Assembly: GCA_003022565.1 (NCBI GenBank)
Contig: PXTN01000074.1
Coordinates: forward strand, 1 to 49,641
Length of the DNA: 49,641 bases
From: Bacteroidetes bacterium QS_3_64_15
GTDB lineage: Bacteria; Bacteroidota; Rhodothermia; Rhodothermales; Salinibacteraceae
Direction: 5' to 3'
Made by a program: the position numbers and the translations under genes. The notes under the pieces were generated by a model. That model worked only from the letters and a program-made list of their open reading frames with translations, was not told where the DNA came from and made no database searches. Positions 15,341-35,161 of this stretch are shown in pieces (within the stretch, counting starts at the first letter, position 1; each line of letters begins with the position of its first letter).

Positions 15341-15379
15341 GACGTGCCGGGCCGTGAGGCAGTTCTGCCGAATCTTGAG

Positions 15380-15536
15380 AACCTGTTTGGCGGATGGATA
15401 CGTGGCCGAGACACAGTGGGCGAAGTGCAGAACGGTGCCCAAGCGACCCCTGTAGTGGAACTACCGGGGGAGTGAAGAAGCCGTTCTGCACGAGATCCAC
15501 GAAGTCACAGGCCGTAGACAGTCCGCCAAACAGGTT
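15380..15536. repeat. structured inverted-repeat element E1
   Basis: AACCTGTTTGGCGGA (15380-15394) / TCCGCCAAACAGGTT (15522-15536); GTGCAGAACGG / CCGTTCTGCAC inner stem; core CCTGTAGTGGAACTACCGGGGGAGTGAAG (15449-15477). Confidence 0.85.
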
Positions 15537-15569
15537 CCGATGCCTTCTCCTACAGACCGTTCCGAATCG

Positions 15570-34999: not shown

Positions 35000-35161
35000 A
35001 GAGTCTGTTTTGATTTTGGGTCGGATCGCAAGAGCGAGAATTGACGGAGCGAAAATCGCCCCCTGGACGAGACCTGTAGTGGGGCTACCGGTTGAGTGAA
35101 GGGGCGATTTGCAGCCCGTCAAGGCCGCTCGGAGCCCGAGAGAGAAATTAAAACAGACTCT
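35000..35161. repeat. structured inverted-repeat element E2
   Basis: Outer arms AGAGTCTGTTTT (35000-35011)/AAAACAGACTCT (35150-35161); inner stem around TTGACGG...AAATCGCCCC / GGGGCGATTT...CCGTCAA; core CCTGTAGTGGGGCTACCGGTTGAGTGAAG (35073-35101). Confidence 0.88.

Follow-up and report, generated by a model that had tools for sequence, protein, structure and literature searches.

What occupies the space between the two convergent genes at positions 15379 to 15537 of the window (the whole 49,641-nt stretch of DNA analyzed here)? The original prediction, which placed the element E1 between genes for an aldo/keto reductase and an acyl-CoA dehydrogenase, described a conserved 29-nt core inside self-complementary arms private to the locus and proposed either a structured RNA or a mobile palindrome that captures or copies flanking DNA. 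The gene context was borne out: the upstream gene encodes an aldo/keto reductase, and the downstream gene combines an acyl-CoA dehydrogenase domain with an acyl-CoA oxidase domain. The features discussed below are as follows.

15376..15378, no strand: left target-site triplet TGA
15379..15537, + strand (the strand with the conserved fold): E1, complete 159-bp element, covered over model positions 1-160 by the covariance models R1 and R2
15379..15394, + strand: left terminal inverted repeat GAACCTGTTTGGCGGA, 5' arm of the outer stem, pairing with 15522-15537
15425..15435, + strand: 5' arm of the inner stem, GTGCAGAACGG, the part that varies most between copies, with pairing kept
15449..15477, + strand: apical core with the GTAG-loop-CTAC hairpin, the best-conserved interior segment and, in other copies, a site of an optional extra hairpin
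15481..15491, + strand: 3' arm of the inner stem, CCGTTCTGCAC
15522..15537, + strand: right terminal inverted repeat TCCGCCAAACAGGTTC, 3' arm of the outer stem
15538..15540, no strand: right target-site triplet CGA, one base off the TGA on the left side
35001..35160, + strand: E2, a diverged member of the same family, with the repeat GAGTCTGTTTTGATTT and TTA on either side

Ends and copies of the element

The helices are largely as predicted. The inner stem is a perfect 11-bp helix (15425-15435 with 15481-15491), the 29-nt core at 15449-15477 matches E2, at 35073, in 25 of 29 positions, and the outer stem is perfect, although its length is 16 bp (15379-15394 with 15522-15537) and not the 15 bp proposed. 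The minimum free energy of E1 is -95.9, against -53.0 +/- 4.2 for shuffled sequences (z = -10.2).

The arms, however, are not private to the locus. A search of the genome with the core, as the prediction advised, gives 18 matches at up to 3 mismatches and none for the reversed pattern. Elsewhere in the genome, at least 25 sites are E1-like, partially or fully, both arms included, and full-length copies of E1, with their arms, recur there at 80 to 97% identity. Nor are the arms of E1 and E2 unrelated, as GANNCTGTTT is the terminal repeat of both elements and a single covariance model aligns them over their whole length. Such a model had also been suggested, and two were built: R1 from 22 E1-type copies and then the broader R2 from alignment A6 (28 rows, two of them antisense, which is a small flaw). 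R1 finds 35 copies in the window's genome and has matches in 19 of the 41 genomes searched. E2, which has its own set of relatives in the genome, is scored at 110.9 bits by R2 (E = 4.3e-26), with E2 itself among the building sequences of that model, and at E = 2.7e-14 by R1, built from E1-type copies.

Copies end in GANNCTGTTT...AAACAGNNTC. The window's genome contains this terminal-repeat pattern about 40 times and a relative up to about 80 times, whereas the reversed pattern occurs 0 to 1 times. The copies thus show the features of miniature inverted-repeat transposable elements (MITEs), being 159 to 247 bp long, bounded by GANNCTGTTT repeats, devoid of a transposase, and present many times per genome. 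Positions 3 and 4 of the terminal repeat differ among copies (GAACC, GAAGC, GAATC, GAGTC, GAGAC) and are usually the same at both ends of one copy.

Optional extra hairpins of about 30 to 50 nt, present in some copies, sit at a small number of fixed sites in the fold: in the apical loop (L003, L004, L021, and L027), after GCCG (L021, L094, and L135), and after GTCGCAG (L135, L120, and L124); others are found in L096 and L026 and, among E2-type copies, in L032 and L131. The sequences of these hairpins are related (GAGCGAAGCGA...TGCCC) and are reused at different positions in both E1 and E2 types, so that they look like exchangeable modules. Separately, several elements of about 150 to 200 bp have the same terminal repeats and seemingly unrelated interiors that the model does not score (L109, L119, L128, and L136 in genome G016, L114 and L132 in G010, and L115 in G009). 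These are probably separate MITE families moved by the same IS5.

R2 has matches in 30 of 115 genomes of the order Rhodothermales, in 18 genera and 7 families. A sample of 396 genomes from the phylum gave no match outside the order at E <= 1e-7; since the matches in that draw are confined to the order, it also serves as a specificity control. In Rfam 15, no family matched the window at the gathering threshold, and none matched the E1 region up to E = 10; two weak matches in other loci were far below threshold and were dismissed.

Target duplications and IS5 partners

Identical triplets flank 61 of the 82 intact copies, and 57 of these are TNA (TCA in 34 copies, TGA in 12, TTA in 6, TAA in 5, and others in 4); a control at shifted offsets gave 0 to 2. 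Capture of flanking DNA finds no support, as the terminal repeats mark fixed ends and the duplicated bases fall beyond them. E1 is absent beside the orthologous downstream gene in 8 congeners. In that search, a query made of the two flanks with E1 removed found its congener matches almost entirely in the downstream gene, so the result is absence of the element and not an exact empty site.

In relatives, there are IS5-family elements that are autonomous, measure about 890 bp, and have terminal repeats matching those of the MITE. One genome of the same genus as the window (G003) has an intact 895-bp element with an intact transposase, the terminal repeat of E2, and a TAA duplication. NCBIfam assigns this transposase to the IS5 family (transpos_IS5_3); the TNA duplication may point to the IS1031 subgroup. 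Homologues with 62 to 39% identity occur in other genomes, and in three of them (G016, G045, and G014) the IS5 repeats match those of the local MITEs. The repeat in G016, GAAGCTGTTTGGCGGAT (L258), is of the E1 type, the same repeat that ends E1; those in G045 and G014 are GAACCTGTTTTGATTTT and GAACCTGTTTTGATTTC, respectively, and that in G056 is similar. In G033, MITE copies are present and the IS5 repeats found there do not match them. An IS5 query of the window's own genome (G000, 84% complete and fragmented) found no full IS5 relative, and a PF13586 search of that genome for an autonomous partner also found none. Its two DDE_Tnp_1 genes were rejected as partners, as their terminal repeats differ. 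At L111 (G001:C3:30034), in a congener devoid of the RNA family, a match to the terminal repeat precedes what is left of a broken IS5-like transposase.

Judged by its sequence, E1 is an IS5-type MITE, because it has 16-bp terminal repeats, its family has TNA duplications, and autonomous IS5 elements match it. The agreement between IS5 repeats and local MITE repeats suggests mobilization in trans: IS5-family transposases encoded elsewhere would recognize the GANNCTGTTT repeats of this non-autonomous element of about 160 bp, excise it, and insert it at TNA, producing the 3-bp duplication. The prediction had been staked on the core not being an internal part or end of a known IS or MITE with fixed terminal repeats. 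In kind, it is an internal part of such an element; however, no published family was found for E1, and MITE status leaves the covariation described below unexplained.

The fold and the strand that carries it

Since the two ends have the same repeat, the outer helix covaries trivially, and its covariation was set aside. Among the 22 E1-type copies, 28 of 58 pairs show double changes, compared with 17.4 after shuffling and at most 7 when the alignment is slid; the inner helix 39-60/106-126 accounts for 11 of the 28. In a set of 32 diverse copies, which have a mean identity of 53% and an alignment fitted to the model structure, 89% of the interior cells are paired with standard pairs, against 35 to 38% when slid; 34 of 37 interior pairs have changed on both sides, and the interior helices contain 310 double-change cells versus 59 to 91 when slid. 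The compensatory changes therefore exceed both the shuffle and the slide controls, as in a structured RNA family. The constant parts are the internal loop GGC-GA-G / C-GCA-GCC, a GA-rich loop above the repeat stem, and the GUAG...CUAC core, and 69% of the unpaired positions in the 32 diverse copies are purines. The interior has no visible remnant of an IS5 gene. Given the interior pairing, the double changes, the excess of G·U, and the better folding of one strand, the element is not an ordinary decayed deletion derivative. The two readings of the original prediction, structured RNA and mobile palindrome, are supported together: the element is mobile, with its repeats, TNA duplications, and IS5 elements, and its interior co-varies as a fold; the capture of flanking DNA is the part that fails.

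The fold belongs to one strand. E1 scores 182 bits in sense and 58.6 bits in antisense orientation with R1, and 170 and 83.2 bits, respectively, with R2. At well-paired columns, G·U outnumbers A·C by 45 to 11 in a first count, by 146 to 56 in 55 short copies, and by 266 to 137 in all 104 copies, decayed ones included; in the interior helices of the 32 diverse copies, the counts are 82 and 27. In an alignment-free comparison, the better fold is that of the sense strand for 94 of 104 copies and for 28 of 33 cluster representatives (p = 5e-4), and the gap in stability between sense and antisense reaches 37 kcal/mol in distant copies (L231). This asymmetry therefore counts against two explanations that treat the strands alike.

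One of these regards E1 as an ordinary IS5 MITE with no selection on the fold, its arms being corrected one from the other by template switching during replication. Template switching in quasi-palindromes is an established process, and the outer 16 to 18 bp must stay complementary anyway, as both ends are the same terminal repeat. However, such correction would erase internal loops and mismatches, yet the asymmetric loops (GA/GCA and ACA/GAA) are conserved, and it predicts no strand preference, whereas G·U exceeds A·C by about 3 to 1 in the interior helices. We regard this explanation as improbable. The other holds that a double-stranded cruciform is selected, uniting the two ends of a very short element for transposition. 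Very short transposons do face a synapsis problem, and the fold runs end to end in all families, which would suit this purpose; a cruciform, however, needs both strands equally, a requirement that the strand asymmetry contradicts, and we consider it very improbable.

RNA, single-stranded DNA, and known systems

RNA and single-stranded DNA cannot be told apart by the strand bias, because DNA folding parameters prefer the same strand, in 92 of 104 copies. Gene context was taken from a simple ORF heuristic for gene calls. Among the copies that could be placed, the neighbors are tandem genes for 54, convergent genes for 15, and divergent genes for 8; a further 3 copies fall within a called ORF, and 24 are at edges. 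The tandem group divides into 28 sense and 26 antisense copies and so reveals no effect on mRNA that depends on direction. The selected molecule could be the folded single-stranded DNA of one strand, used in a transposase, integrase, or replication-linked step like that of integron attC sites or IS200/IS605 ends. In attC sites and IS200/IS605 hairpins, too, one strand folds, and structure is conserved over sequence; the preference of DNA parameters for the same strand and the lack of orientation bias relative to genes would agree with such a role. Against it, IS200/IS605 elements make no target duplication, whereas the E1 family has 3-base TNA duplications and shares its terminal repeats with IS5 elements of the DDE type, which points to double-strand cut and paste. 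On balance, we think single-stranded DNA an unlikely, though not negligible, candidate.

The reading that we favor, and consider probable, is that of an order-wide MITE mobilized in trans, with selection acting on its body to fold as a single strand, probably in the form of RNA within read-through transcripts. On one strand, the sequence enclosed by the repeats would fold into a long imperfect hairpin with fixed purine-rich internal loops and the fixed GTAG...CTAC apical core, and selection would keep the shape of the hairpin while stem sequences are replaced. Because the fold begins and ends in the terminal repeats, which would pair at its base, there is no room for an internal promoter ahead of it; by this reasoning, a full-length RNA must come by read-through, the whole fold being made only if transcription enters from outside. 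We infer that RNA is the acting molecule, in read-through transcripts of neighboring genes, and the same holds for any effect on those transcripts. Most simply, the fold may be a compact module that shields or processes transcripts, making the insertion tolerable. In a more speculative version, rather doubtful in our estimate, what persists in transposon form is a functional noncoding RNA that exerts its effect in trans or on host transcripts. It would have acquired its terminal repeats anew from one IS5 lineage after another, and a single RNA fold would thereby have outlasted several mobilizers across the order.

MITEs with folding transcripts are already known, and in outline the E1 family works alike. 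It resembles IS5-family MITEs in sharing its repeats with transposase-bearing IS5 elements and in its TNA duplication, intergenic location, and multiple copies; it differs in having one co-varying fold conserved across an order, in its lack of visible IS5-gene remnants, and in terminal repeats that vary with the IS5 of the host. ERIC, BOX, RUP, and Correia (NEMIS) elements are likewise short interspersed repeats with transcripts that fold into long hairpins, although with other sequences and in other hosts. In BOX and RUP, the terminal repeats are paired in the fold (PMC3049150), the repeats of Correia transcripts are cleavage sites for RNase III (PMC10969869), and ERIC affects mRNA decay (PMC10969869, PMC5896051). 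BOX also has optional internal modules, like the extra hairpins of the E1 family. In the literature searched, the structures of these four rest on folding or on RNAalifold/RNAz analysis of one to a few species, and no account was found of stems being replaced with covariation across a whole order. QMITE2 of Coxiella burnetii, compared by description only, is a MITE with a predicted full-length hairpin transcript and reported sRNAs derived from the element (PMC10969869, PMC5896051), but it has another host and direct repeats of 7 to 9 bp (PMC10969869). Many intergenic repeat families fold by RNAz (PMC2267715). We found no paper on MITEs or ISSru elements of Salinibacter and no earlier report of compensatory changes preserving a fold throughout an order with terminal repeats tracking the resident IS5.

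Bacterial MITEs are commonly regarded as remnants in decay, with hairpins that result from their inverted repeats. Here, an interior fold is kept by compensatory change over an order while its sequence and terminal repeats turn over. The family thereby offers a testable case for selection acting on a bacterial MITE in its RNA (or single-strand) form, with culturable Salinibacter species that carry dozens of copies.
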